DNA of 64,000 nucleotides from Cellulosimicrobium marinum (GTDB lineage: Bacteria > Actinomycetota > Actinomycetes > Actinomycetales > Cellulomonadaceae), in assembly GCF_020551945.1 (NCBI RefSeq), contig NZ_JAJBZH010000001.1:500108-564107 (forward strand), written 5' to 3'. This document shows, piece by piece, positions 6,899 to 47,281 of this stretch. Every line of letters begins with the position of its first letter. Position 1 is the stretch's first letter. The position numbers and the translations under genes were made by a program. The notes under the pieces are model-generated. The model saw nothing but the letters and a program-made list of their open reading frames with translations. It made no database searches and was not told the DNA's origin.

Positions 6899-8104
6899 AT
6901 GACCGCACCGAGGACCGGCCCCGCGCTCCTCGCCCTCGCCATGGGCGGGTTCACCATCGGCACCACCGAGTTCGCCACCATGGGCCTGCTGTCCGACGTC
7001 GCGACCGACCTCGGCGTGTCCATCCCCACCGCGGGCCACGCCATCACCGCGTACGCCGTCGGCGTCGTCGTCGGCGCGCCCACCCTCACCGTGCTCGCCG
7101 CCCGCCTGCCCCGCAAGACGCTCCTCCTGACGCTCATGGCCTTCTACACCGTCGCCAACGTGCTCTCGGCCGCCGCGGGCAGCATCGAGACGCTCGTCGC
7201 CGGGCGCTTCCTCGCCGGGCTGCCGCACGGCGCGTTCTTCGGCGTCGGGGCCGCCGTCGGCGCGGCGGTCGCCGGCCCCGGCCGCCGCGGCCACGCCGTC
7301 GCCATGATGATGACCGGCCTCACCGTGGCCAACGTCGTCGGCGTCCCGCTGTCCACGTTCGTCGGGCAGCAGCTCGGGTGGCGCGCCGCGTTCGTCCTCG
7401 TCGGCGCCCTCGGGCTCGTCACCCTCGCGGCCCTGTGGTGGCTCGTGCCGGCACGCGCCGGGCACGAGGTGTCCAGCGCCCGGCAGGAGCTCGCGGCGCT
7501 GCGCAACGGGCCTCTGTGGATCGGGTTCGTCGCCGCCGCCATCGGCTTCGGCGGCATGTTCGCCGTCTACTCCTACGTCGAGCCCACCATCACGCGTGTC
7601 ACGGGGCTCGCGTCCGCCGGCGTGCCCGTCGTCCTCGCCGTCTTCGGGGTCGGGATGACCGTCGGCACGCTCGTGGGCGGCCGCCTCGCCGACCGGTCGG
7701 TCATGCGCACCGTCCACCTCGGCTTCGCCTCCACCGCCGCGTCGCTCGTGCTCTTCGCCCTCACCGGCCAGCACCCCGTGCCCGCCGTGCTCGCGCTCTT
7801 CCTCCTCGGCGTCACGTCCCAGGTGCTCGGGCTCTCGCTCCAGACGCGCCTCATGGACCTGTCGCCCGCCGCGCCCTCCCTGGGCGCCGCGCTGTGCCAC
7901 TCCGCGCTCAACGTCGGCAACGCGAGCGGGGCGTTCCTCGGCGGCGTCGTCATCGCCGCGGGCTGGGGCTACCTCGCCCCTGCCTGGACCGGGCTGGTGC
8001 TCACGCTCGTCGGCTTCGCGATCATCCTCGTCGCGGGCCGTCGCCCCGCCGGCGTCACGGTCGGCGAGCTGCCCGCCACGGCCGACGCCGCCGCGCCGAG
8101 GTAG
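6899..8104 (+). CDS. MFS transporter, DHA1 (AraJ/YdhP/Cmx-like) family
   Basis: A 401-residue, 12-span major facilitator. The first span contains LALAMGGFTIGTTEFATMGL, a hallmark of the AraJ/YdhP/PbuE branch; members export sugars, purine nucleosides or chloramphenicol. A second conserved stretch, RFLAGLPHGAFFGVG, lies near residues 102-116. The ATG at 6899 follows GGGAGC with a short spacer. A TAGACT hexamer overlapping the mntR stop (about 6750) may be its -10, giving a leader that contains the 14-bp palindrome. The stop codon lies inside the first unit of a 22-nt repeat. The substrate cannot be inferred. Confidence 0.88.
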   Translation: MTAPRTGPALLALAMGGFTIGTTEFATMGLLSDVATDLGVSIPTAGHAITAYAVGVVVGAPTLTVLAARLPRKTLLLTLMAFYTVANVLSAAAGSIETLVAGRFLAGLPHGAFFGVGAAVGAAVAGPGRRGHAVAMMMTGLTVANVVGVPLSTFVGQQLGWRAAFVLVGALGLVTLAALWWLVPARAGHEVSSARQELAALRNGPLWIGFVAAAIGFGGMFAVYSYVEPTITRVTGLASAGVPVVLAVFGVGMTVGTLVGGRLADRSVMRTVHLGFASTAASLVLFALTGQHPVPAVLALFLLGVTSQVLGLSLQTRLMDLSPAAPSLGAALCHSALNVGNASGAFLGGVVIAAGWGYLAPAWTGLVLTLVGFAIILVAGRRPAGVTVGELPATADAAAPR

Positions 8105-8162
8105 TACCGAGGGCGCCCGAGGGTAGTACCCCGGCCGCGCGAGGGAGCACCCCGGCCGACGG
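8098..8162. repeat. Three tandem 21-22-nt repeats with self-complementary core
   Basis: Units begin at 8098, 8119 and 8141, each starting GAGG. The first two contain the interrupted palindrome GGTAGTACC (8100-8108, 8122-8130); the third is degenerate. The first unit overlaps the stop codon of the MFS gene. Related units occur at 19518-19561 (inverted orientation) and 20711-20819. Confidence 0.8.
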
Positions 8163-8200
8163 CGGGCGGCCGCGCACAGCCAGGTCCCAGCGACACGCGG

Positions 8201-8206
8201 TAGGTT
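8201..8206 (+). promoter_or_regulatory. Possible -10 box of the VKOR gene
   Basis: TAGGTT about 70 nt before the start codon would give a 60-nt leader ending in a good GAGGAG Shine-Dalgarno (8263-8268). Confidence 0.4.
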
Positions 8207-8275
8207 GTGCCCACCGCGCCGCAGGCGCGACCACGACGGTCCGGCGCGAGCCGGCGACCCACGAGGAGCGTCCCC

Positions 8276-8935
8276 GTGAGCAAGAGCGCCACCGCCGGTG
8301 CGACGAACGAGACCGGGCACGACGAGGCCGACCTGCCCGAGCCCGGCGAACCCCGACCGATCAGCGCGCGGACCATGGGATGGCTGCTCGTCGTGCTGGG
8401 GGCGATCGGCTTCCTCGCGTCCGCCGACCTCACGATCGAGCGCTACCTCACGCTGGTCGACCCCGACCACGCGCTCTCGTGCACGCTGAGCGTCTTCGTC
8501 GACTGCGGCCCCGCCATGGGCTCGTGGCAGGGGTCGCTGCTCGGCTTCCCCAACCCGCTCCTCGGCATCGCCGGGTTCTCCGTCGTCATCACGTCGGGCG
8601 TCGTCGTCCTCGCGGGGGCCCGGCTCCCGCGCTGGTACTGGCTCGCGCTGCTGGGCGGGACGACGCTCGCGCTCGCGCTCGTCGTCTTCCTCGTGTGGAC
8701 CAGCCTCTACGCGCTCGTGCGGCTGTGCCCGTGGTGCATGGTGGTGTGGGCCGTCGTGCTGCCGCTCTTCTGGTACCAGGTCGTGCACGCCGTCCAGGAG
8801 GGCTGGCTCCCGGCGAGCGCCGGCGTGCGCCGCACGCTCGTCCGCAACCGCCACCTTTTCCTCGCGATCGGCTACGTCGCGCTCGTGGCGTGGGTGCTGC
8901 TCGTCATGGGGCAGTACATCGTCAGCAGCCTCTGA
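8276..8935 (+). CDS. Vitamin K epoxide reductase (VKOR) family membrane protein
   Basis: A 219-residue, roughly five-span membrane protein. The CPWC redox motif at residues 151-154 and an upstream cysteine pair in LSCTLSVFVDCG are the two dithiol centres of VKOR homologues. These reoxidise a DsbA-like thioredoxin outside the membrane and pass electrons to menaquinone, driving disulfide formation in exported proteins. No DsbA gene is adjacent. The GTG at 8276 is chosen over the upstream frame because GAGGAG lies 7 nt before it. A 12-bp hairpin directly downstream ends the unit. Confidence 0.92.
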   Translation: MSKSATAGATNETGHDEADLPEPGEPRPISARTMGWLLVVLGAIGFLASADLTIERYLTLVDPDHALSCTLSVFVDCGPAMGSWQGSLLGFPNPLLGIAGFSVVITSGVVVLAGARLPRWYWLALLGGTTLALALVVFLVWTSLYALVRLCPWCMVVWAVVLPLFWYQVVHAVQEGWLPASAGVRRTLVRNRHLFLAIGYVALVAWVLLVMGQYIVSSL

Positions 8936-8940
8936 CGGAC

Positions 8941-8978
8941 GACGGCGCGGGGCAGCCCCGGGGCGACCCCGCGCCGTC
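8941..8978. terminator. Perfect 12-bp stem-loop between convergent genes
   Basis: Arms at 8941-8952 and 8967-8978 (GACGGCGCGGGG and its complement) around a 14-nt loop. It lies between the convergent VKOR and YbjQ genes. There is no U-tract, as is common in GC-rich actinobacteria. Confidence 0.8.
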
Positions 8979-9001
8979 GGGCCGTGGTCGCCGTCGGGGC
9001 C

Positions 9002-9442
9002 TCAGCGCCAGCCCGGCTGGTCCGGGGCGGCGTCCTGCGGACCGCCCTGCGCCCCGTACGCCGGGGCGGGCGCCGACTGCGCCTGGTGCGCGGACTGCGC
9101 CGTGGCGCCCGGCTGACCCGCGGGGATGGGGGCGACGACCACGGCCGTGCCGTACGCGCACACCTCGGAGAACTGCTGCGCGATGTCGCCGGTGTCGAAC
9201 CGCATCCCGATCACGGCGTTCGCGCCGCGGCGCTGCGCCTCCTGGACCATGCGGTGCATGACCTCCTGGCGCGACTCGTACACGAGCTGGGTGTACTCCT
9301 TGACCTCGCCGCCGCCGAGCGCGCGGAAGCCCGCCGTGAAGTTCGCGCCGAAGTTGGCGCTGCGCACGGTCATGCCCATCACCTCCCCGAGCACGGCGTC
9401 GATGCGGTAGCCCGGGACCTCGTTCGTCGTCACCACGATCAT
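9002..9442 (-). CDS. YbjQ/UPF0145 family protein
   Basis: A 146-residue protein. Residues 1-110 form a YbjQ-type domain ([23 protein letters not shown] opening condensed here; later [14 protein letters not shown]), a small oligomeric fold of unknown function sometimes described as heavy-metal binding. The last 35 residues are a low-complexity A/Q/P-rich tail. The start has a CAGGAT -10-like box (9449-9454) 6 nt upstream and no Shine-Dalgarno, so it is probably leaderless. It is convergent with the VKOR gene and divergent from leuS. Confidence 0.88.
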
Positions 9443-9503
9443 GCGCGCATCCTGCCACGGCGCACCCGGTCGCCGGGCCGCCGTCCCGCACGGGTGCCGC
9501 CGG

Positions 9504-9509
9504 TAGAAT
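9504..9509 (+). promoter_or_regulatory. -10 box of leaderless leuS
   Basis: TAGAAT lies 7 nt before the GTG start of leuS and no ribosome-binding site is present. Confidence 0.6.
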
Positions 9510-9516
9510 CGCCCGC

Positions 9517-12500
9517 GTGACCACCCCTGACGCCGCCCCTGAGATCACGCACGCCCCCGGCCAGCCCGCCCACCGGTACACCCCGGCCCTCGCGGAGCAG
9601 ATCGAGCTCAAGTGGCAGGACCTGTGGGAGCAGCGCGGCACGTTCTTCGCCGCGAACCCCGACGGTCCGCTCACCGACGGCGCCGGTGAGGGCCCGGGCG
9701 GCGCGAGCCCGTACTTCATCATGGACATGTTCCCGTACCCGTCGGGCGCGGGCCTGCACGTCGGGCACCCGCTGGGATACATCGCGACCGACGTCGTGGG
9801 GCGGTTCCGGCGCATGTGCGGCGACAACGTGCTGCACGCGCTGGGCTACGACGCGTTCGGCCTGCCCGCCGAGCAGTACGCGGTGCAGACGGGTCAGCAC
9901 CCGCGCGTGACGACCGAGGCGAACATCGCGAACATGCGCCGCCAGCTGCGCCGCCTCGGCCTGGCGCACGACTCGCGGCGGTCGTTCGCGACGATCGACC
10001 CCGAGTACGTGCGCTGGACGCAGTGGATCTTCCTGCAGATCTTCGACTCCTGGTACGACGCCGATTCCGCCCGCCCCGACGGAGGGCTGGGCCGCGCACG
10101 ACCGATCGCCGAGCTGGAGGCCGAGCTCGCCGCGGGGTCGCGTCCGGTCCCCGCGGGCGTCGAGGGCGTCGAGGCGGGCGCGGACTGGGCGACGCTCACG
10201 CCGGCCCAGCGCCGCGCCGTCGTGGACTCCCAGCGTCTGGCGTACGTCGACGAGTCGCCCGTGAACTGGGCCCCCGGGCTCGGGACCGTCCTCGCGAACG
10301 AGGAGGTCACCGCGGACGGGCGCTCGGAGCGCGGCAACTTCCCGGTGTTCCAGCGCAGCCTGCGCCAGTGGAAGATGCGCATCACGGCGTACGCCGACCG
10401 CCTCGCCGACGACCTCGACCTCATCGACTGGCCGGAGAAGGTCACGGCGATGCAGCGCAACTGGATCGGGCGCAGCGAGGGCGCGCTCGTGCGCTTCGCG
10501 GTGCTCGGCGCCGCGGACGGCGCGAACGACGCCGCCGCGGAGTCCGGCTCGCAGATCGAGGTCTTCACGACGCGCCCCGACACGCTGTTCGGCGCGACGT
10601 TCATGGTGGTCTCGCCCGAGCACCCGCTGCTCGACGAGGTGCCCGCGCACTGGCCGGACGGGACGTCGTCGGCGTGGACGGGCGGGCACCGCTCACCCGT
10701 GGAGGCGGTCGCGGCGTACCGGCGCGAGGCCGCGGCGAAGACGGCCGTCGAGCGGCAGGCCGACGCCGGCAAGAAGACCGGCGTGTTTACCGGGCACCTC
10801 GCTGTCAACCCGGTCAACGGCGCGACCATCCCCGTCTTCACGGCCGACTACGTGCTCATGGGCTACGGGACCGGCGCGATCATGGCCGTCCCCGGCGGCG
10901 ACGAGCGCGACTTCGCGTTCGCCGAGGCGTTCGGGCTGCCCGTCGTGCGCACGGTCGAGCCCGCGGGCGGGCTGCCCGAGGACTTCACCGGCCCGTACAC
11001 GGGGGACGGCGTCGCGGTGGGGTCGTCGAACGACGAGGTGTCCCTCGACGGGCTCGGGGTCGCCGACGCCAAGCGCCGCATCACCGAGTGGCTCGTCGCG
11101 AAGGGCCTGGGCGAGGGCACCACGACGTACCGCCTGCGCGACTGGCTCTTCAGCCGACAGCGCTACTGGGGCGAGCCGTTCCCCATCGTGTGGGACTCCG
11201 ACGACCGTCCCGTCGCCCTCCCCGACGCGCTGCTGCCCGTCGAGCTGCCCGACGTCCCCGACTACGCCCCCCGCACGTTCGAGCCCGACGACGCGAGCTC
11301 CTCGCCCGAGGCGCCGCTCGGCCGCAACGACGACTGGGTGCAGGTCACCCTCGACCTCGGCGACGGGCCGAAGCAGTACCGCCGCGACACCAACACCATG
11401 CCCAACTGGGCCGGGTCGTGCTGGTACTACCTGCGCTACCTCGACCCGGCGTGGACCGGGGGAGAGGCTGCCGGGTCCGCCGGCACGGGACCCGTCGTCG
11501 TCGACCCCGACCTCGAGCGCTACTGGATGGGCCCGGAGCACAACGCCACGGCGGGCCGCTCGGGCGGCGTCGACCTGTACGTCGGCGGCGTCGAGCACGC
11601 CGTGCTGCACCTGCTCTACGCCCGGTTCTGGCACAAGGTGCTCTACGACCTGGGCCACGTGTCGAGCATCGAGCCGTTCCACCGGCTCTTCAACCAGGGG
11701 TACGTCCAGGCGTACGCGTTCACCGACGCGCGCGGCCAGTACGTCCCCGCGGCAGAGGTCACCGAGGAGCCCGCTGCCGACGGTTCCGGCGAGGTCGTCT
11801 ACCGCTGGAACGGCGAGGTCGTGCAGCGCGAGTACGGCAAGATGGGCAAGTCGCTGAAGAACGTCGTCACGCCCGACGACATGTACGCCGAGTACGGCGC
11901 CGACACGTTCCGCGTCTACGAGATGTCGATGGGTCCGCTCGACCTGTCGCGCCCGTGGGAGACGCGCGCCGTCGTCGGGTCGCAGCGGTTCCTGCAGCGG
12001 CTGTGGCGGAACGTCGTGAGTGAAGACACGGGGGAGACGGTCGTGTCGGACGAGCCCGCCGACGTCGCGACCCTGCGCGCCGTCCACCGTGCGATCGCGG
12101 ACGTGCGCGTCGAGATGGAGCACATGCGCCCCAACACGGCCATCGCGAAGCTCATCACGCTCAACAACCACCTCACGTCCCTCGACCGCGTGCCGCGCGA
12201 GGCCGTGGAGCCGCTCGTGCTCATGACCGCGCCCGTCGCGCCGCACCTCGCGGAGGAGCTCTGGGAGCGCCTCGGACACGACACCTCGCTCGCGCACGAG
12301 CCGTTCCCCACGGCCGACGAGCAGTACCTCGTCGAGGACACGGTCACGTGCGTCGTGCAGGTCAAGGGCAAGGTGCGCGGCCGTCTCGACGTGCCGCCGT
12401 CGATCTCGGAGGAGGACCTCACGGCCGCCGCGCTCGCGGAGCCGAACGTCGTGCGCGCGATCGACGGCGCGGAGGTCCGCACGGTGATCGTCCGCGCGCC

Positions 12501-12525
12501 GAAGCTGGTGAACATCGTCGTCTGA
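9517..12525 (+). CDS. leuS: Leucyl-tRNA synthetase
   Basis: A class I aminoacyl-tRNA synthetase charging tRNA-Leu in the cytosol. The HIGH signature reads HVGH near residue 81, and the KMSKS loop reads KMGKS near 775, a mild variant. The CP1 editing domain lies between, with the [12 protein letters not shown] strand near residue 350 that helps form the hydrolytic site. At 1002 residues it is longer than typical bacterial LeuRS; extra length is seen in loops near 185-225 and 590-610. The start is leaderless. The stop is followed 5 nt later by a long stem-loop. Confidence 0.97.
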
Positions 12526-12530
12526 CCCGT

Positions 12531-12587
12531 TGAGTGCATGAAATAGTCGCGTCGGGGAGCCCCAGGCGCGACTTTTTCATGCACTCA
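12531..12587. terminator. Long bidirectional stem-loop between leuS and a DUF559 gene
   Basis: Arms 12531-12551 and 12567-12587 pair over 21 bp with one mismatch; an inner GGGG-AG-CCCC stem closes the loop. The inner GTCGCG/CGCGAC stem is followed by TTTTT, a classic intrinsic terminator for leuS. The stop codon of the opposing gene lies within the right arm. The outer AT-richer part (TGAGTGCATGAAA) is unusual for this genome. Confidence 0.8.
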
Positions 12588-13475
12588 CGGCCATGCCCGT
12601 GCCCGACGACGAGCCCTCGCCGCCCGCACCCGACGCACCAGACGCTCGGGGAGGCGGAGCACGTCGTCGGCCGTCGCGGTGACGACGACCCAGCCCGCGT
12701 CCTCCAGGCGTTGGCGGCGCTCGACGTCGCGTCGCCACGTCGCCGGGTCGGTGCGGTGCACGTCGCCGTCGTACTCGATCGCGATGCGCAGCTCCGGGTA
12801 GGACAGGTCAGGCAGGGCGAGGAACCGGCCTGCGTCGTCGAGGGCGGGGCGGTTGACGGCCGGCGTCGGCAGCCCGGCCTGCACGAGGATCAGTCGCGTG
12901 CGGGTCTCCATGCTCGAGTCCGTGCCCGGCCGGACGAGGCCGATCGCCTCCCGGCACCGGACGATCCCACGCATCTTGTAGGTCGAGTCCATGAGCCGTC
13001 GCAGCTCGGCCACGGTGGTCGCGGGGTGTCTCCGGCGCGTCATCGAGTCGGCCAGGACGACCACGGCGTCGGGCGGCAGCGCGTGCGCGACCTGGAGCCA
13101 GGTCTGCGCGGGGGACGTGACGCGCAGATCGTCGACCTCGACGACGTCGAGACGGTCCTGCCCGCAGTAGTGGGAGACGACCGCGGTCCGCTGGGCACGA
13201 TCGCCCCGCCGCGTCGAGACGACGTGGAGACGGTCGTCGCGGGCGATCTCCCACGGGACCTCGACCCCGAGCAGCCGGAGGGCGGTCGTCCGGGCGAAGG
13301 CGCTGTCGGGGTGGAGCACGCGGGCGACGGCGCGGCACCGGTCTGCGAGGGTCGGGTCGGTGGTGCCGAGCACCCGCACTCCTGACGTCGGTGCGTGGGC
13401 GCTCGGTCCGCGCAGGACGCCGGGGGTCAGGCCGGCGGCGAGCGCCTCGGCCGTGGTGAGGATCGTCGTCGTCAT
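12585..13475 (-). CDS. DUF559-type protein with a predicted PD-(D/E)XK endonuclease fold
   Basis: A 296-residue protein common as solitary genes in actinobacteria. The N-terminal half resembles the AbiEi-like antitoxin winged-helix region seen in such proteins. The C-terminal half contains LRIAIEYDGDVHR (about residues 230-245) then RRQRLEDAGWVVV. These are the typical Asp/Glu-containing strands of the Vsr/DUF559 restriction-endonuclease-like fold, with the E-Y-D-G signature intact. Function unknown; nuclease activity is inferred from fold. It is bracketed by two palindromes that both contain CCGTTGAGTGC, and its stop lies inside one of them. No partner gene is adjacent. Confidence 0.75.
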   Translation of the reverse strand: MTTTILTTAEALAAGLTPGVLRGPSAHAPTSGVRVLGTTDPTLADRCRAVARVLHPDSAFARTTALRLLGVEVPWEIARDDRLHVVSTRRGDRAQRTAVVSHYCGQDRLDVVEVDDLRVTSPAQTWLQVAHALPPDAVVVLADSMTRRRHPATTVAELRRLMDSTYKMRGIVRCREAIGLVRPGTDSSMETRTRLILVQAGLPTPAVNRPALDDAGRFLALPDLSYPELRIAIEYDGDVHRTDPATWRRDVERRQRLEDAGWVVVTATADDVLRLPERLVRRVRAARARRRARAWP

Positions 13476-13536
13476 GGCCCGAGACTGGCCGTGGTGAGGC
13501 ACGGCCGGACAGGCCGCGCGGCGATCTGTGGAGAAC

Positions 13537-13607
13537 CCTCCGTTGAGTGCGGCCCATTCGTCCTCGGAACACGTTCGCGGCGACACATCCCCAGCACTCA
13601 GCGGAGG
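13537..13607. repeat. Long-armed inverted repeat upstream of the DUF559 gene
   Basis: Arms at 13537-13550 and 13594-13607 pair over 14 bp with one mismatch around a 43-nt loop. The left arm shares the 11-mer CCGTTGAGTGC with the leuS-side hairpin (12527-12537). Confidence 0.75.
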
Positions 13608-13664
13608 CGGCGCAGCCGGGCGGAGATGCGTGCCACGGCCCGGACGCCGTAGGGTGGCGCGGCC

Positions 13665-14519
13665 ATGAACCCCGCTCCGCACGTCCACGTCGTCACCGAC
13701 TCGACGGCCTCCCTGCCGCCGCAGGACGTGGCGTGGCTGCGCACCGTCCCGCTGCACGTCGCCGTCGAGGGGGACTCGTTCCTCGAGGGCGAGGAGATCA
13801 CCGCGCAGGACGTCGCCGCGCACCTCGCGGCGGGGCACCGGGTGTCCACGTCCCAGCCGACGCCGCGCGCGTTCGCCCGGGCGTACGCCGCCGCCGCCGC
13901 GTCCGGGGCGCGCGCGATCGTGTCCGTCCACCTCTCGGGCGAGCTGTCGGGCACCGTGCACGCCGCGGCCCTGGCGGCGTCCGACGCCCCCGTCCCGGTG
14001 CGGGTCGTCGACTCGCGGACCGCCGCGGCGGGGCTCGGGTTCGCCGTCCTCGCGGCGGTCACGGCCGCGGAGGAGGGGGCCGACGTCGACACGGTGGCGC
14101 GGCGAGCGCTGACCGTCGCCGACTCGAGCCGGGCCGTGTTCCTCGTCGAGTCCCTCGACCACCTGCGGCGCGGGGGCCGGCTGAGCCCCGCCGCCGCCGC
14201 GCTCGGCACCGTGCTCGGCGTGCGGCCGCTCCTCGCCGTGCGTGACGGCCGGATCGAGGTGGTCCAGAAGGTACGCACCCGGGCCGCCGCCGTCGAGCGT
14301 CTGACGAGCGTCGTCGTCGGCTCCGCGGGACGCCGGAACGACCCGGCGCTCGCGGTGCACCACGTGGGGGACGAGGACGGCGCACGCCGCCTCGCGGACG
14401 AGCTGACCGCGAGGACGGGCCTCGACGTGCTCGTGACCCCGGTGAGCGCGGTCCTCGGGGCGCACGTCGGCCCCGGGGTGCTGGCCGCCGTCGTCGCCGA
14501 CCGGGCGCCGCAGCACTGA
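13665..14519 (+). CDS. DegV-family fatty-acid-binding protein
   Basis: A 284-residue DegV protein. The family binds a fatty acid between two domains; in Gram-positives relatives (FakB) present the acid to the kinase FakA. Motifs include VTDSTASLP near residue 10, STSQPTP near 65 and SVHLSGELSGT near 90, all lining the lipid carboxylate site, with RRGGRLS near 167. No FakA-like kinase is adjacent. A TAGGGT box (13650-13655) 9 nt before the ATG and absence of a Shine-Dalgarno suggest a leaderless mRNA. The next genes, comEA/comEC, have their own promoter. Confidence 0.92.
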   Translation: MNPAPHVHVVTDSTASLPPQDVAWLRTVPLHVAVEGDSFLEGEEITAQDVAAHLAAGHRVSTSQPTPRAFARAYAAAAASGARAIVSVHLSGELSGTVHAAALAASDAPVPVRVVDSRTAAAGLGFAVLAAVTAAEEGADVDTVARRALTVADSSRAVFLVESLDHLRRGGRLSPAAAALGTVLGVRPLLAVRDGRIEVVQKVRTRAAAVERLTSVVVGSAGRRNDPALAVHHVGDEDGARRLADELTARTGLDVLVTPVSAVLGAHVGPGVLAAVVADRAPQH

Positions 14520-14623
14520 CCGCTCCGGCCTGAGGTCTCGTCACACGGCCGTGCACAGGCCGCGATCCCGCGTCGGCATCCACAGGTGCCGCGACGACAG
14601 GCCCGCCGGACCTCCCGACGACC

Positions 14624-14629
14624 TAGCGT
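14624..14629 (+). promoter_or_regulatory. -10 box of leaderless comEA
   Basis: TAGCGT lies 7 nt before the ATG at 14637 and no ribosome-binding site is visible. Confidence 0.5.
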
Positions 14630-14636
14630 GCCGCGC

Positions 14637-15920
14637 ATGACGACAGCACGGCACGCTCCCGGTGACCGGACCCCGACGACGGCCCGCGCCCCGCGCCGCA
14701 GCGACGCCGTCGTGCGGCAACGGCTCCGCGCCGTGACCGGTGGCGACCGTGCCGCACCGTCCGACGTCCCTGCCGTCACGGCCGGGGGACGCCCGGTGCT
14801 CGCGTGGCACCCGGCGACCGCCGCGCTGGACCTCGTCCCGGCGGCCGGGGGCGCGCGTCGCACGGGCCCGGACCGCACGGCGGGACCCGACCGCGCGGGG
14901 CCGCCGGACGGCTCGGAGGGTGGAGGGACCTCGGCGGTGGTGGACCTCGGCGGCGACGCCGGCGCGTGGCTGCCGGACCGGCCGACCGCGGCGCGCGCCG
15001 ACGACGCGTGGAGCACCGACCTGCGGCGGCGTGCCGACCCGCCGCGGCGCGGCCCGGAGGACGTCGCCGCGCGCGCGAGGGACCGGGCGGCGACCACGGC
15101 CGCGCAGGCCTACGCGGCGCTGCACGGCCACCCGACCGTGCACTCCGGGTTCGTGGACCTCGCCGACGAGGGCACGTACGGTACGGACGCGACGAGGCCG
15201 CGGACCAGGGTCCGGCTGCGGGTCGCGGTCGCCGCGGCAGTCGTCGTCCTGGCGCTCGGCGGCGCGACCGCGGTCGCGGCCACCCGCCCGGACCCCGTGA
15301 GCACCGTCGTGGCGCTCGACGGGCACGACGACGGCTCCGCGGACCACGCTGCGGCAGACGGGCATCCGCAGGAGGGGGCGGAGGAGAGCGCGGTGGCCGA
15401 GGGGGCGGCGCAGGTCCCCGGCCCCGAGGCCGGGCAGGCCGGCGACCCCGTCGTCGGTGCGGGCGCCCCGGCGGTGGGGGAGCCCGGCGTGGTGGTGCAC
15501 GTCGTCGGGCAGGTGGGCGCGCCCGGGCTCGTGCAGGTGCCGGCGGGCGCCCGCGTCGCCGACGCGCTGACGGCCGCGGGCGGCGCGACCGGCGACGCGG
15601 ACCTCACCGCCCTCAACCTCGCGCGGACCGTCGTCGACGGGGAGCAGATCGTCGTCACCCGCCCGGGCGAGACGCCGCCCGCGCCGCCGCCCCCGGCGTC
15701 CGGCGGTGCCGAGAGCGCCGGTGCCGGGACGGTCGTCGACCTCAACACCGCCGACGCGACCGCGCTCGACGCGCTCCCGGGGATCGGGCCGGTGCTGGCT
15801 GAACGGATCGTCGCGTGGCGCGTCGAGCACGGCAGGTTCTCCACCGTCGACGAGCTCGGCGAGGTGAGCGGGATCGGCCCCGCGGTCCTCGCGGACGTGC
15901 GCGACCTCGTTCGCGTGTGA
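14637..15920 (+). CDS. comEA: ComEA-like DNA-binding competence protein
   Basis: A 427-residue protein. A long disordered cytoplasmic N-terminus (about 1-190) leads to one membrane span (about 196-216), then an acidic A/E/G-rich linker, an SLBB domain (about 285-341; VVVHVVGQVGAPGLVQV) and a C-terminal pair of helix-hairpin-helix motifs (about 367-426; LPGIGPVLAERI and VSGIGPAVLADV). ComEA binds incoming double-stranded DNA outside the membrane and hands it to ComEC. The N-terminal extension is much longer than in Bacillus ComEA, as is usual in actinobacteria. It overlaps comEC by GTGA. Natural transformation in this organism is not demonstrated. Confidence 0.93.
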   Translation: MTTARHAPGDRTPTTARAPRRSDAVVRQRLRAVTGGDRAAPSDVPAVTAGGRPVLAWHPATAALDLVPAAGGARRTGPDRTAGPDRAGPPDGSEGGGTSAVVDLGGDAGAWLPDRPTAARADDAWSTDLRRRADPPRRGPEDVAARARDRAATTAAQAYAALHGHPTVHSGFVDLADEGTYGTDATRPRTRVRLRVAVAAAVVVLALGGATAVAATRPDPVSTVVALDGHDDGSADHAAADGHPQEGAEESAVAEGAAQVPGPEAGQAGDPVVGAGAPAVGEPGVVVHVVGQVGAPGLVQVPAGARVADALTAAGGATGDADLTALNLARTVVDGEQIVVTRPGETPPAPPPPASGGAESAGAGTVVDLNTADATALDALPGIGPVLAERIVAWRVEHGRFSTVDELGEVSGIGPAVLADVRDLVRV

Positions 15921-18436
15921 CCGACCTCCGGCTCGCCCCCGCCGCACTCGTCGCCTGGGCGGTGGCCGCGTGCGCCGTCGGGGCCGAACCCGACGTGGTG
16001 CTCGTGGCCGCGGGCGTCACGGCGGTGCTGCTCGGCGGCGTCCTCGTGGTCGCAGCCGTCCGCCGTCTCCGCCCGGCGTCCGGGGACGACGACGTGCGGT
16101 CGCCGGTGCGCCGCGCGGCCCGGCGCCTCCCGTGGGGACAGGCGGTGCTCGTCGCCGCGTGCGCGGGCGCCGTCCTGCTCTCGTGCGGGGCGCAGCTCGC
16201 GGCCCGCGCCGGCGCGGCCACGGCCGAGCTCGCCGCCGACGGCGCCACCGCGACGGTCGTCGCCGTGCCCACGTCCGCGGTGGAGCCGCGCACGAACCCG
16301 TGGACCGGCGCCGTGGACCAGCACGAGGTGCGCGTCGGGCTGCGGACGCTCACCGCGCGCGGCGTCACCACGGCCGCGACCGGGCCGGTGCTCCTGCGCG
16401 GCGGCGGGCACGGATGGGACGGGATCGCCTACGGGGCGACGGTCGAGGCGCGCGGGCAGCTCCGGCTCGACGGCGACCGCACCGTGCTCCAGGTCGACCA
16501 CGCCCCGCGCGTCCTCACGGAGCCGCCCGCGCTCCTGCGCGGCGTCCACGCCCTGCGGTCCGGGCTGCTCGACCGGACCGACGGGCTCTCGCCCCAGGCC
16601 CGAGGCCTCGTCCCCGGCGTGGCCGTGGGAGACACGTCGCGACTCGACCCCGACCTCGACGACGCGCTGCGGACCACGTCGCTCACCCACGTCACCGCGG
16701 TGTCCGGAGGGCACTTCGCGATCGTCGTGGCGTGCGTCGCCGCCCTGTGCGTGGTGCTGCGCGCGCCGCGCACCGTGCGGGTCGTCGTCACGGCGGCCGC
16801 CATGACCGGGTTCGTCCTGCTCGTCCACCCCGAGCCGAGCGTGCTGCGTGCCGCCGCCATGGGCGCCGTCGGACTCGTCGGTCTGCTGCTGGGCCGTCCC
16901 TCACGGGCGGTCGCCGCGCTCGGAGCCGCGGTCGTCGTGCTGCTCGTCCTCGACCCGTGGCTCGCGCGGTCCTACGGGTTCGTGCTCTCGGTGGCGGCCA
17001 CCGCCGGGCTCGCGCTGGGCGCGGGACCGATCGCCCGTCGGCTGGAACCCTGGTGCGGGAGGGCGACGGCCCACCTCGTCGCCGTCCCCGTCGCCGCGCA
17101 GGCCGCGTGCGGCCCGGTCCTCGTGCTGCTCGACCCCGGCCTGAGCACCTACGGCGTCCTCGCCAACCTCGTGGCGGCCCCCGCGCTCGGCCCGGCGACC
17201 GTCCTCGGGCTCGTCGCGACCCTGCTCGCTCCTGTCTGGCCCGCGGCCTCGACCGTCGTCGCCGCAGGCGCGGGCCTCTTCACCGGGTGGATCGCGGCCG
17301 TCGCGACGACGTTCGCGGCGCTCCCCGGCGCTCGCACCCCGTGGCCGGGCGGGCCGGGCGGCCTGCTCCTCCTCGCCGTCGTCACCGCGGTCGCCCTCGT
17401 GCTGGTGCTGCGTTCCCGGACGCTCGACCGGCTGGGCGACGCCCGGCTGCGCGACCGCGCGCACCGCCCGCCCTGGACGGTCCGGCTCCGGCGGGTGCGC
17501 GGCGCTCGCTTGTCCGGCCGGAGCACCCGCTCGCTCGGGAGCGGCCGGGCGCGCGGCGCGCTCGTGGTGACGGCACTGGTGGCAGCCCTGGTCCTGGCCT
17601 TCTTGCTGGTCCGTCCGGCCACCACCCTCGGGACCCGCGTCCCTGACGACTGGGCGGTCGTCGCGTGCGACGTCGGGCAGGGTGACGCGCTCGTCCTGCG
17701 CTCGGGCGAGTCGTCCGCGGTCGTGGTCGACGTCGGCCCGGACGGCCCTGCCGCCGGCCGCTGCCTCGACACGCTCGGCGTGGACACGGTCGACCTGCTC
17801 GTCCTCAGCCACTTCCACGCCGACCACGTGGGCGGGCTCGACCGCGTCCTGCAGGGCCGACGTGTCACGGGCGCGCTCGTGACCGCCACGCGCGACCCTG
17901 CCGCCCAGGCCGACCGCACGCTCGGGGCGCTCGCGGCCGCGGGCGTCCGGGTCGACGTCGCGCAGGCGGGTGCGACCGGCGTCGCCGGCACGGGCGCGGA
18001 CGGCGTCGCGTGGGAGGTCCTCCAGGCCGGACCGGCCACCGGCGGCACGGCGTGGGAAGGCGGCGCCAACGACGCGAGCGTCGTCCTGCGGGCCCAGGTG
18101 GGCGCGGTCGACGTCGTCGCGCTCGGCGACCTCGAGGACCCCGGCCAGGAGGCGCTCGCGCGGACGCTCGCGGCACGCGGCGCGGACCCCGTCGATGTCG
18201 TGAAGATGGCGCACCACGGCTCGCGGGTCCAGTCGGACCGCCTCGCCGGGCTGCTGGCGCCCTCCGTCGTGCTCGTCAGCGCGGGCGAGAACACCTACGG
18301 CCATCCCACGGACCACGCGCTCGACCTGTACCGGTCCGTGGGCGCCACGGTCCTGCGGACGGACCGGTGCGGAACCGTCGCGCTCGTGGCGCACGACGAC
18401 GGCCTCGCCGTCCCCGGGTGCGCGGACGGCTCGTGA
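15917..18436 (+). CDS. comEC: ComEC/Rec2 DNA-uptake channel protein
   Basis: An 839-residue membrane protein. N-terminal spans and a DUF4131-like region are followed by the competence channel domain (about 220-530; LTHVTAVSGGHFAIV is a family hallmark). A C-terminal metallo-beta-lactamase-fold domain (about 570-830) carries CDVGQGDALVL and the metal-binding SHFHADHVGG near residue 630. The protein forms the channel through which one DNA strand enters; the lactamase-like domain is proposed to degrade the other. The GTG at 15917 overlaps the comEA stop. All key motifs are intact. holA follows 64 nt later, an order conserved in actinobacteria. Confidence 0.95.
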   Translation: MTDLRLAPAALVAWAVAACAVGAEPDVVLVAAGVTAVLLGGVLVVAAVRRLRPASGDDDVRSPVRRAARRLPWGQAVLVAACAGAVLLSCGAQLAARAGAATAELAADGATATVVAVPTSAVEPRTNPWTGAVDQHEVRVGLRTLTARGVTTAATGPVLLRGGGHGWDGIAYGATVEARGQLRLDGDRTVLQVDHAPRVLTEPPALLRGVHALRSGLLDRTDGLSPQARGLVPGVAVGDTSRLDPDLDDALRTTSLTHVTAVSGGHFAIVVACVAALCVVLRAPRTVRVVVTAAAMTGFVLLVHPEPSVLRAAAMGAVGLVGLLLGRPSRAVAALGAAVVVLLVLDPWLARSYGFVLSVAATAGLALGAGPIARRLEPWCGRATAHLVAVPVAAQAACGPVLVLLDPGLSTYGVLANLVAAPALGPATVLGLVATLLAPVWPAASTVVAAGAGLFTGWIAAVATTFAALPGARTPWPGGPGGLLLLAVVTAVALVLVLRSRTLDRLGDARLRDRAHRPPWTVRLRRVRGARLSGRSTRSLGSGRARGALVVTALVAALVLAFLLVRPATTLGTRVPDDWAVVACDVGQGDALVLRSGESSAVVVDVGPDGPAAGRCLDTLGVDTVDLLVLSHFHADHVGGLDRVLQGRRVTGALVTATRDPAAQADRTLGALAAAGVRVDVAQAGATGVAGTGADGVAWEVLQAGPATGGTAWEGGANDASVVLRAQVGAVDVVALGDLEDPGQEALARTLAARGADPVDVVKMAHHGSRVQSDRLAGLLAPSVVLVSAGENTYGHPTDHALDLYRSVGATVLRTDRCGTVALVAHDDGLAVPGCADGS

Positions 18437-18500
18437 CCGGCTCGGGCTGCTGGCCTGCCGGGCTGCGGGCCGGGTCGGCGGTTCGTGGCAGGCTTGGCGC

Positions 18501-19505
18501 ATGCCCGCACCCTCCCGGTCCGCCCGACCCTCCGCCGCGACGAGCTGGGACGACGTCCGTCTGGCCCCGGTGGTGCTGGTCCAGGGACCCGAGTCGTTGC
18601 TCGCGGAGCGTGCGGTCGACGCCCTCGTCGACCTCGCCCGCGAGCAGGACCCGGGCACGGAGAAGGTCGTGCTCGAGGGCGCCGCCTACCAGGCGGGGAT
18701 GCTCACGGTGGCCGCCAGCCCGTCACTGTTCGGCGAGGCGAAGATCGTCGTCGTCACGGGGGCGGAGGCCGCGACGGACGCCCTCGTCGCCGACGTCGTC
18801 GCCTACGTGCCGGTCGCGGACCCGGCGACCACGGTCGTCGTCGTCCACGGCGGCGGCGTGCGCGGCAAGCGGATGCTCGACGCGATCCGCACGAGCGGCG
18901 CCCCCGTCGTCGCCGTCGAGGCGATCAAGAAGGACGCCGACAAGTCGGCGTTCGTCACGGCCGAGTTCCGTCGTGCCCGCCGACGCATCGACGGCACGGG
19001 CGTGCGCGCTCTCGTCGAGGCGCTCGGCAACGACCTGCGCGAGCTCGCGTCGGCGTGCGCGCAGCTCGTCACCGACACCGAGGGCACCGTGACGGAGCAG
19101 GTGGTCGACCGCTACTACGGGGGCCGTGTCGAGGCCACGGGATTCCGCGTGGCCGACGCCGCGGTCGCGGGTGACGCCGGTCAGGCGGTGGCGCTGCTCC
19201 GGCACGCCCTCGCGACCGGCGCCGACCCGGTGCCGATCGTCGCGGCGCTCGCGATGAAGCTCCGCGCGCTCGCGAAGGTCGGTGCGATGCGCGGACGCGG
19301 CGGCGCGTCCGCGAAGGACCTCGGCATGGCCCCCTGGCAGGTCGACCGGGCTCGCCGCGAGCTCGCGTCGTGGACGCCCGAGGGGCTCGCGACCGCGATC
19401 TCCGCCGTCGCGCAGGCCGACGCCGAGGTGAAGGGCGCCGGGCGTGACCCCGTGTACGCGGTCGAGCGCGCCGTCCTCACCATCGCCCGCGCCCACGGCC
19501 GCTGA
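18501..19505 (+). CDS. holA: DNA polymerase III subunit delta
   Basis: A 334-residue clamp-loader delta subunit of the replicative polymerase holoenzyme; it opens the beta sliding clamp during loading. The N-terminal AAA+-like domain begins near residue 22 (LAPVVLVQGPESLLAERAV) and lacks a Walker ATPase site, as expected. A lid domain is followed by the collar domain (about 210-334), with GMAPWQVDRARR and the closing DPVYAVERAVLTIARA segments typical of HolA. The start has CAGGCT 6 nt upstream. It is convergent with rpsT across a repeat pair and a stem-loop. Confidence 0.95.
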   Translation: MPAPSRSARPSAATSWDDVRLAPVVLVQGPESLLAERAVDALVDLAREQDPGTEKVVLEGAAYQAGMLTVAASPSLFGEAKIVVVTGAEAATDALVADVVAYVPVADPATTVVVVHGGGVRGKRMLDAIRTSGAPVVAVEAIKKDADKSAFVTAEFRRARRRIDGTGVRALVEALGNDLRELASACAQLVTDTEGTVTEQVVDRYYGGRVEATGFRVADAAVAGDAGQAVALLRHALATGADPVPIVAALAMKLRALAKVGAMRGRGGASAKDLGMAPWQVDRARRELASWTPEGLATAISAVAQADAEVKGAGRDPVYAVERAVLTIARAHGR

Positions 19506-19517
19506 CGCGGGCCCGTC

Positions 19518-19561
19518 GCGGACCTCGGGACTCCCTCGCGAGACCGGGGGTACTACCTCGC
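19518..19561. repeat. Two tandem 22-nt repeats related to those at 8.1 kb
   Basis: Units 19518-19539 and 19540-19561. Read on the minus strand each starts with GCGAGG; the cores are GGGAGTCCC (19527-19535) and GGTAGTACC (19549-19557). The core differs between units but stays self-complementary. Confidence 0.8.
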
Positions 19562-19577
19562 GGGGGGCGGCGGACGC

Positions 19578-19616
19578 ACGAAGGGCGCCAACCCGTGCGG
19601 GTCGGCGCCCCTCGTG
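19578..19616. terminator. Bidirectional stem-loop between holA and rpsT
   Basis: GGGCGCC pairs with GGCGCCC and an inner ACCCG with CGGGT, flanked by a partial ACGA/TCGT extension. It lies just beyond the rpsT stop. Confidence 0.8.
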
Positions 19617-19651
19617 GAGAGCCTGTGGTCGCCTGGACGGCGACGCGTCGC

Positions 19652-19912
19652 TCAGAGCGCGTTGACCGACTTCGCGATGGCCGACTTGCGGTTCGCGGCC
19701 TGGTTCGCGTGGATGACGCCCTTCGAGACGGCCTTGTCGAGCTTGCGCGAGGCAGCCTGGAGGGCGGTGGTCGCCGCCTCCTTGTCGCCGGCGGCGACGG
19801 CCTCGCGCACGCGGCGCACGTACGTCTTGAGCTCGGACTTGACCGCCTTGTTGCGCAGGCGAGCCTTCTCGTTCGTACGGATGCGCTTGATCTGGGACTT
19901 GATGTTGGCCAC
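19652..19912 (-). CDS. rpsT: 30S ribosomal protein S20
   Basis: An 86-residue, Lys/Arg-rich, all-helical protein that binds 16S rRNA early in small-subunit assembly. The [20 protein letters not shown] opening and [17 protein letters not shown] ending are diagnostic. Length is normal for the family. The GTG start has a weak AGAAAG upstream. It is transcribed convergently with holA, an arrangement common in actinobacteria. The gap upstream to the PemK-like gene carries its promoter region. Confidence 0.97.
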
Positions 19913-20115
19913 GTGTGAGCTTTCTGGTGTGTTCGCCGAAGCGAGCGGATAGGTCGTAGAGGGCGGCTCCAGCTCCGGGACTGGGGTGGGGAACCCGTGG
20001 TGAGGTGCTGGAGCGGTGCCCGCCGACCTGGGCGGACACGCGACCAACGAGAATACCAGCCAGGCCCCGTCTCGATCCAGTCGGCGCCGTGACCGCCGCA
20101 GGCTCGCGCGACGGA

Positions 20116-20697
20116 TCAGCGGTGCGCGGCGATCCCCGCGACGACCGTGTCGAACACGGACCGGCCGACGACCGCACCCTCGCGCCGCACGGCGCCCGGG
20201 TCCACGCGGATCACCCGGTCGAGGCGCACCTCGCTGTCGCGACCCTTCGCGTCCCACGGTCCCGAGCCGATGTCGAGCCAGTGGCGGCCCCAGCGGGCCT
20301 CGTCGCGCGCGTCGCGCGAGTGGTCCTTGCTCGTGAGCATCACGGCGAGCAGCCAGGGCCCGTCGGTGCCGACGAGGAGCACGGGCCGGTCCTTGCCCTG
20401 GGAGTGGTCCTCCTCGAACGGGACCCACGTCCACACGATCTCGCCCGGGTCGGGGTCGCCGTCGAGGCGCGGCGCGTACTGCGCGCGGACCGGACCCTCG
20501 TGGTCGCCGGGGTACCCGTCGCCCGGCCGGGGCGCGGTCGTCGTACCGCCCGACGCGCGGGACGCCGGGCCGCGCGACGTCGTCCGGGAGCCGGACGTGC
20601 GGGAACCGGACGCGCGGGCGCCGGACGACCGGGAGAGCCCGCGGGCGAGGGCGTGCGCCGCGTCGGACAGGAGGCCGAGCCATCGGTTGCGTGCCAC
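20116..20697 (-). CDS. PemK/MazF-family protein with long N-terminal extension
   Basis: A 193-residue protein. Residues 1-80 are a basic, Ser/Arg/Gly-rich, probably disordered extension. Residues 84-190 match the MazF/PemK barrel: [14 protein letters not shown] then [10 protein letters not shown], the strands that bind RNA in MazF endoribonucleases, and a C-terminal [11 protein letters not shown] segment. No antitoxin gene is adjacent, so it may be a domesticated chromosomal member rather than an active toxin. The leaderless GTG is preceded by TAGGGT (20704-20709, minus strand). The 22-bp repeat array occupies the region where its -35 and upstream elements would lie. Confidence 0.8.
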
Positions 20698-20703
20698 GCG
20701 CGC

Positions 20704-20709
20704 ACCCTA
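20704..20709 (-). promoter_or_regulatory. -10 box of the leaderless PemK-like gene
   Basis: TAGGGT on the minus strand, 6 nt before the GTG at 20697. The 22-bp repeats begin immediately upstream. Confidence 0.55.
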
Positions 20710-20710
20710 C

Positions 20711-20819
20711 ACGCGCGACGAGGGGACCTTGTCCACGCGCGAGGGGGACCTCGTCCACGCGCGAGGGGGACCTTGTCCACGCGCGAGGGGGACCTTGTCC
20801 ACGCGCGAGGGGACACCCC
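20711..20819. repeat. Array of four and a half 22-bp tandem repeats
   Basis: Units start at 20711 (24-nt variant), 20735, 20757, 20779, with a partial copy from 20801. Each begins ACGCGCGAGG and ends in GGACCTTGTCC or GGACCTCGTCC, an interrupted palindrome (20724-20734, 20746-20756, 20768-20778, 20790-20800). The period of two helical turns and the position between two divergent leaderless promoters suggest a protein-binding array. On the minus strand each unit also contains TGGACA, one mismatch from a -35 box. Confidence 0.85.
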
Positions 20820-20904
20820 GTCGTGGACGCGGGCTCGTGACACCGGGCGGGCGGCCGTTACCGCGGCGACACACGCGCGTGACACCCCCGCATCCCGTCG
20901 CGCC

Positions 20905-20910
20905 TACCGT
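20905..20910 (+). promoter_or_regulatory. -10 box of the ATP-grasp operon
   Basis: TACCGT 6 nt before the ATG at 20917; no Shine-Dalgarno. Confidence 0.5.
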
Positions 20911-20916
20911 GCGGGC

Positions 20917-22595
<1,679 letters not shown>

Positions 22596-47042: not shown

Positions 47043-47178
47043 CGACGTCTCGCCGCCCCCGGCGACGCACTTGTAGGGCGGTTGCCCGCTAACCCCGTCA
47101 GGGCGTGACGTACCACGGATGCCGGGCCCCTCCGAAGGCCGGTCGCCGGTGCGACGGCGTGTGGTGACGGTCCACGAA

Positions 47179-47281
47179 GGCGGGGTCGGGGGCGAGGCGA
47201 CGGGTCGTGGTGGGTCTGGCGGGAGCGGCCGAGGAACGAGGCCGCGGATGGTAGACCCGCCGCCTCGCCCCCGACCCCGCC
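47179..47281 (+). ncRNA. Candidate structured RNA or terminator hairpin between leuA and recO
   Basis: Perfectly paired arms of 21 nt (47179-47199/47261-47281) enclose a second stem GGGTCT/AGACCC and an inner GCGGCC/GGCCGC stem. This could be a bidirectional terminator-like structure, an mRNA 3' end stabiliser or an uncharacterised RNA; no known family is recognised. Confidence 0.45.

Follow-up and report, generated by a model that had tools for sequence, protein, structure and literature searches.

Tandem repeats of about 22 nucleotides (nt) at three noncoding places in a 64,000-nt stretch of Cellulosimicrobium marinum raise the question of whether they form one family, how far such a family extends, and what keeps it in the genome. 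The stretch (here called the window) corresponds to C1:500108-564107 of genome G000, which comprises 3.83 Mb in 14 contigs. A preliminary description made from the letters alone proposed that all three sites carry a single dispersed family whose cores keep pairing arms while the bases change. Tandem units of this size do exist at all three places, and two of them (sites 1 and 2) belong to a dispersed family; the remaining one (site 3) is a separate single-locus repeat. The family consists of partly species-specific arrays of a directional unit, dispersed behind gene ends, which capture stop codons and gain or lose whole units, and of a larger hairpin, here called element H, which is present or absent as a block and has covarying stems. 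The strong covariation lies in this neighboring element, which the preliminary description did not list. The reading that we favor, with about an even chance of being correct, is a two-module composite interspersed family in Cellulosimicrobium and close relatives, similar to repetitive extragenic palindromes (REPs) and Rickettsia palindromic elements (RPEs), with a putative role in termination or insulation at gene ends.

The Tandem Repeats Finder (TRF) scores of sites 1 and 2 (73 and 57; site 3 scored 181) were unremarkable for a GC-rich window with 162 TRF rows. Sites 1 and 2 stand out from chance through the number of copies in the genome of a 12-mer that they share, CGAGGTAGTACC: 59 exact copies (31 forward and 28 reverse) compared to 1 for the reversed control. 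Copy numbers of this 12-mer within the genus ranged from 0 to 100 (100 in G013, 45 in G014, 28 in G008, 8 in G004, and 0 to 4 in the other 12 relatives), and outside the genus from 0 to 3, the level of the control. A tandem-pair pattern retrieved 44 stretches among named genomes, exclusively from Cellulosimicrobium and Isoptericola, and the open-access literature searched contained no description of such repeats in either genus. Further copies in the genome, which the preliminary description had anticipated, were found with R1, a model based on sequence only and made from 80 array-derived units. R1 gave 166 genome matches at an E value of ≤10; the 150 matches listed fall into 64 groups, and the group counts below cover these 150.

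The unit approximates CGAGGTAG-NNC-C-GNGGT-NNCG, is 20 or 21 nt long and directional, and has the motif GTAG in most of its copies. Among exact cores in the window and the 44 named loci, the spacing of same-strand neighbors was 20 or 21 nt for 83 of 93 pairs, and mixed-strand neighbors faced inward in 22 of 23; the groups of the window's own genome likewise had 15 of 17 mixed neighbors facing inward and 2 of 17 facing outward. The named loci were selected with a TAC-type pattern, so the majority of TAC cores among them is biased, and they overlap the records of G013, G014, and G004, which makes the named loci and the numbered genomes not independent of each other. Covariation of the unit core was rejected: over the 80 units, the four core pairs were standard in 79.7% of cells compared to 80.1% in shuffles, there was one double change, and neither pairing nor double changes exceeded the shuffles. 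Two columns were invariant, the left-arm G and an unpaired central G, and the invariance of the latter marks the unit as a directional motif. Complementarity of the core, which the preliminary description had expected relatives to keep, is lost in several of them. Core GGTAGAACC was present in 23 of 25 units at the G005 loci examined, and the nonpalindromic core GGTAGAGCC predominated in G007 (27/45 units), G006 (12/18), G012 (10/13), and G016 (14/17). For most of the genomes compared by eye, the unit type at site 1 agreed with the one found at other places in the species. Concerted evolution of the units is likely from these sequences, though it is not clean and few loci per species were compared.

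Position relative to genes was assessed with our own codon-based gene caller in place of the annotation, and some lone unit matches inside open reading frames (ORFs) may be chance. The 64 unit groups comprised 25 in convergent gaps, 27 in tandem gaps, 1 in a divergent gap, 8 inside a called ORF, and 3 at an edge; for comparison, the window has 44 gaps, of which 8 are convergent, 27 tandem, and 9 divergent. Counting groups within 300 nt of a gene end, and setting aside those in ORFs or farther away, the nearest unit had an outward direction at 52 of 69 gene 3' ends, compared to 12 of 26 5' ends (the other 14 were directed toward the gene). Both orientations thus occur, as had been described, but they follow a rule, with units mostly pointing outward at the 3' end of the neighboring gene. 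The near absence of groups from divergent gaps and the lack of a direction preference at 5' ends do not agree with the earlier suggestion of related operators. The unit's TAG was the stop codon of the gene in 16 of the 52 outward 3' cases; among the 325 complete genes that the caller gave for the loci, 53 end in TAG, with unit-derived TAGs included in that number.

Arrays that face each other lead to the second module. Within an array no spacers intervene, as originally stated, but this does not extend to facing arrays, which in 12 pairs were 141 to 237 nt apart (start to start) and had H in 9 of 12 middles. Separately, locus L100 (C1:384223-384587) has nine units facing each other around a GC-rich middle other than H. 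H is a hairpin of about 105 nt, found in either orientation, in which the stem varies whereas the internal loop and the apex are conserved (GTCTACCATCC-stem-CTCGTTCCTCG-stem-CTCCCGCCAGACCCGCCACGAC). A structure-blind alignment of 26 copies supported both of its helices, with 91.2% of cells paired compared to 73.7% in shuffles and double changes in 18 of 24 pairs. Model R2 identified 83 copies in the window's own genome. In a model-fitted alignment of 78 of them, 96.6% of cells paired compared to 68.1%, and 19 of 22 pairs had double changes; the 19/22 count was matched by 14 of 500 shuffles, while none of the 500 equaled the covariation score or the cell counts. The stems of these 78 copies fell into 40 clusters, with a median identity of 0.52 in the stem compared to 0.89 in the apex. 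That stems have remained paired despite this divergence suggests either use or active repair of the arms.

The mismatches that persist in H stems were lopsided, with 35 A.C and 8 G.U over the 40 clusters (p=4e-5 for the outer 10 pairs and p=0.17 for the inner 17 pairs). In co-directional gaps, the strand opposite to the purine-rich one was the sense strand for 26 of 39 H copies. The A.C excess and the co-orientation with genes favor opposite strands of H. No T run was present in the H copies viewed.

R2 matches were found in 22 of 59 relatives, including 17 of 17 in the genus with 12 to at least 68 copies each, and in 39 of 221 genomes and 9 of 25 genera of the family (18 candidates scored per genome). 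There was no unit array near the 13 examined of 16 H loci from other genera, and the range of H is for that reason wider than that of the units. Within the window's own genome, a unit was present within 400 nt for 21 of 83 H copies; of the 64 unit groups, 21 were near an H.

Some H copies had features of their own. Four of the 83 lie at a contig end (C2:68131-68231, C5:2-82, C9:463730-463794, and C12:170000-170050), and runs of G, N, and C occur in or beside H-like hairpins at L094, L143, and L263; these contig ends and runs suggest that the hairpins break assembly. A composite copy without the H apex (L139, C9:291939-292117) appears by eye to have lost it between short CACCC repeats. There are six H pairs (at L256, L263, L273, L278, L282, and L289), spaced 194 to 387 nt and always plus then minus, with different intervening DNA; these pairs are possibly similar to REPINs, the hairpin-forming doublets of REPs.

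Of the 83 copies, 81 could be placed and 2 could not. H lies for the most part 3' of genes: convergent gaps had 24 copies, tandem gaps 39, and divergent gaps 0, while 16 were inside called ORFs and 2 were at edges. Twelve of the 16 in-ORF copies lie in ten ORFs that were scanned, and all ten had Pfam domains. These ORFs encode a thioredoxin-NHL protein, a short-chain dehydrogenase/reductase (SDR), LigD, acyl-CoA carboxylase alpha, a P-type ATPase, two ATP-binding cassette (ABC) proteins, a DUF3418 protein, a GntR-aminotransferase, and DNA polymerase III alpha. H was between domains in 6 of 10, within a domain match that was split or stretched in 2 (DUF3418 and polymerase), and outside domains in 2 (SDR and one ABC protein), for which the gene end may have been misjudged. 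Copies inside these ORFs were in frame, in several reading frames and on both strands, and their translations varied from copy to copy. Because frames and strands vary, the conserved apex reflects nucleic acid rather than peptide. Three H copies share a single ORF, the one with the DNA polymerase III alpha domains (L278; C10:88301, 88495, and 89728).

Comparison of orthologous places by eye across 17 genomes revealed gain or loss of whole units and presence or absence of H. At the place of site 1, units were present in 10 of 17 genomes, with the stop codon at the unit's TAG in 10 of 10. Three genomes without the array (G002, G010, and G011) have a TAG, and G003, G008, G014, and G015 also have no array; the stop as called in G008 looks misplaced. 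At this place G016 and G012 differ by five whole units (gaps of 368 and 473 nt, respectively). Both also have an H block, measured at 105 nt, which is missing in G006; MAFFT placed the gap wrongly here, and the block was therefore read by eye. Nine of the 17 genomes had units or unit relics at the place of site 2. The leuA 3' end was compared in 16 genomes: H was found in G000, G003, and G015, part of H in G014, an ordinary hairpin in 10, and neither in 2; the arms of H have changed in step among G000, G003, and G015. The H copy of the thioredoxin-NHL gene recurs in the same position in both G013 and G014.

Several known systems share parts of this pattern. A paper on GTAG/CGTC REPs (PMC3733652, Di Nocera et al. 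2013) describes REP-type repeats mainly from Proteobacteria, proposes that those of the GTAG kind are moved by a Y1 transposase, and does not mention Actinobacteria. According to the same paper, GTAG/CGTC REPs lie downstream of genes, often provide TAG stop codons, and occur in DnaE2 and ligase genes. Like them, the present repeats are dispersed and mostly extragenic, lie downstream of genes in convergent and co-directional gaps, form tandem and inverted groups, supply TAG stops, and have copies in genes for DNA synthesis and repair. The resemblance to REPs noted in the preliminary description thus stands for dispersal, 3' position, orientation, and stop-codon capture. It does not extend to the enzyme, as Y1_Tnp (PF01797, Y1/RAYT) was detected in 0 of 29 genomes at an E value of ≤0.001, with 5 of 14 control genomes positive. 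Unlike GTAG REPs, the unit also has no 5- to 13-bp stem beside an unpaired GTAG, is nonpalindromic in sister species, and is accompanied by a hairpin of about 105 nt with copy-specific stems. RPEs, as outlined in a review of miniature inverted-repeat transposable elements (MITEs; PMC10969869), are palindromes of 100 to 150 bp found both intergenically and in frame within unrelated genes. Compared by this description, H is similar in size class and in location; it differs in that its nucleotides are conserved with no constant peptide, in several frames and on both strands, with stems specific to each copy. The family works like REPs and RPEs but belongs to neither, because Y1 is absent, the unit is stemless, and H has no constant peptide.

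H is like an intrinsic terminator in being a GC-rich hairpin at gene ends, and at the leuA 3' site most genomes have an ordinary hairpin. It is unlike one in forming a sequence family with a conserved apex, in lacking a T run in the copies viewed, and in occurring inside ORFs. The enterobacterial repetitive intergenic consensus (ERIC) and bacterial interspersed mosaic elements (BIMEs) of enterobacteria are imperfect palindromes in transcribed gaps and mosaics of repeat and spacer. The likeness of H to them is one of general description, and in H the conserved part is the apex. Searches against Rfam gave nothing at the gathering score for window positions 7000-22000 and 12 own-genome loci with H or facing arrays; the best overlap with H was a miRNA model far under the cutoff. 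H had no phage match and one weak match to a plasmid sequence (36 nt, E value of 0.07, Deinococcus). A viral origin was considered from a single IMG/VR match and rejected, since inspection by eye attributed the match to coding coincidence.

If the family is a composite with a role at gene ends, as we favor, H would be gained and lost as a block, moved or copied by a system that reads its apex, and arrays would grow by slippage and be homogenized by recombination between copies. Gene-end H and facing arrays would form strong fold-backs that help to end or insulate the transcripts of convergent and co-directional genes, and insertions into promoters would be purged. Several observations weigh against this account. 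The two modules are associated but separable and only partly linked, because 62 of 83 H copies have no nearby unit, and a pure terminator role leaves the 16 of 81 H copies inside ORFs unexplained. One-direction arrays did not fold convincingly above shuffles or complements (45 arrays with at least four units each, mean z of −0.91 compared to −0.61 for the complements, p=0.13); on the sense strand, 13 single arrays ranged in folding z from −5.2 to +1.3. The units are not the rpsT terminator, because the rpsT hairpin is kept with or without units in 17 of 17 genomes. The cores of G000 are a mixture (85 of 164 TAC and 48 of 164 AAC), and G004 has AAC at site 1 with mainly AGC at the other loci examined, so homogenization is not clean. 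No mobilizing enzyme was found in a search aimed at Y1 only. A purely selfish reading is nearly as good as a functional one. It holds that these are selfish or neutral mobile repeats of the MITE, RPE, or REP type with no host function, inserting widely but surviving only where they are harmless, behind stops or as in-frame protein linkers. We regard it as a serious possibility with the balance of probability against it. The near absence of units and H from divergent gaps fits it, as do in-frame H copies in LigD, acyl-CoA carboxylase, P-type ATPase, and others in several frames, orthologous sites that differ in presence or absence, and the many species with their own unit type. On the other hand, H at the leuA 3' site occupies the position that an ordinary hairpin has in 10 of 16 genomes, and its stems remain paired while diverging.

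More speculatively, H may be a new kind of mobile or continually renewed DNA hairpin. Its apex of about 50 nt would be read by an enzyme, and template switching from arm to arm would make or repair the largely Watson-Crick stem belonging to each copy; unit arrays would serve as docking or growth sites, with cores coevolving with a species-specific factor, in a REP-like system without Y1. We consider this combination unlikely, though less so than the three proposals that follow. If H were primarily a functional RNA, either an independent noncoding RNA or an RNA-binding site, the arrays would be incidental. Covarying helices with conserved internal and terminal loops are consistent with such an RNA, and the 35 A.C against 8 G.U mismatches would fit an RNA from the purine-rich strand that tolerates G.U. 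Yet it is the opposite strand that is sense in 26 of 39 co-directional gaps, and 83 dispersed copies, in-ORF copies on both strands, and the lack of an Rfam family make the proposal improbable. Little chance is given to a sequence-specific DNA-binding protein using the arrays as operators or architectural sites, in which case the 21-nt period (two helical turns) would put the sites on one DNA face and cores would track each species' protein. A constant period and direction, the invariant central G, and species-specific cores would suit such a protein; arrays lie behind genes, however, not in promoters, and tandem duplication alone also yields a fixed period. Movement as GTAG-type REPs by a REP-associated tyrosine transposase (RAYT, Y1) is largely refuted. 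Its attraction is the GTAG of the unit together with the TAG stops, downstream position, and DnaE2 and ligase copies given for such REPs in PMC3733652, but PF01797 is missing from all 29 genomes, and the unit has neither the 5- to 13-bp stem nor, in sister species (GGTAGAGCC and GGTAGAACC), a palindromic core.

An actinobacterial group with the outward signs of REPs but no Y1 in 29 genomes, with units that vary among species and a partner hairpin of 40 stem clusters, makes two questions testable: what moves and homogenizes such repeats, and whether repeats at gene ends are terminators or merely tolerated.

Within the window, the family is represented by sites 1 and 2 and by one copy of H (Table 1). 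The stop codon of the major facilitator superfamily (MFS) transporter gene is the TAG at 8102-8104 in the first unit of site 1, and the second unit of that site has one additional G.

Table 1. Repeat sites, element H, and associated features of the window (window positions)
Feature	Position	Strand	Description	Basis
MFS transporter gene	6899..8104	+	PF07690; 3' end within unit 1 of site 1	Own gene caller and Pfam
Site 1	8096..8159	+	Three tandem directional units starting at about 8096, 8117, and 8139	Units 1 and 3 by position weight matrix, unit 2 by eye
Site 2	19522..19561	-	Two units in the convergent holA/rpsT gap, directed away from the rpsT 3' end	
rpsT hairpin	19575..19617	-	Behind rpsT, distinct from the units; present in 17/17 genomes	By eye
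Site 3	20711..20819	+	Distinct 22-nt tandem repeat GCGAGGGGGACCTTGTCC, outside the family; in the gap between divergent PemK-like and ATP-grasp genes	
Element H copy	47178..47280	-	Between leuA and recO; no units adjoining; orthologous copies in G003 and G015	

Site 3 was tried as a family member and rejected. Its unit had 4 genome matches at ≤2 mismatches, 3 of which are at site 3 itself, and the site is not among the 150 of 166 R1 matches listed. It lies in a divergent gap, and the repeat was not found upstream of the orthologous gene in G013 and G014 (3 of 17 loci could be anchored, G000 included). As a separate repeat, site 3 could be an operator array.

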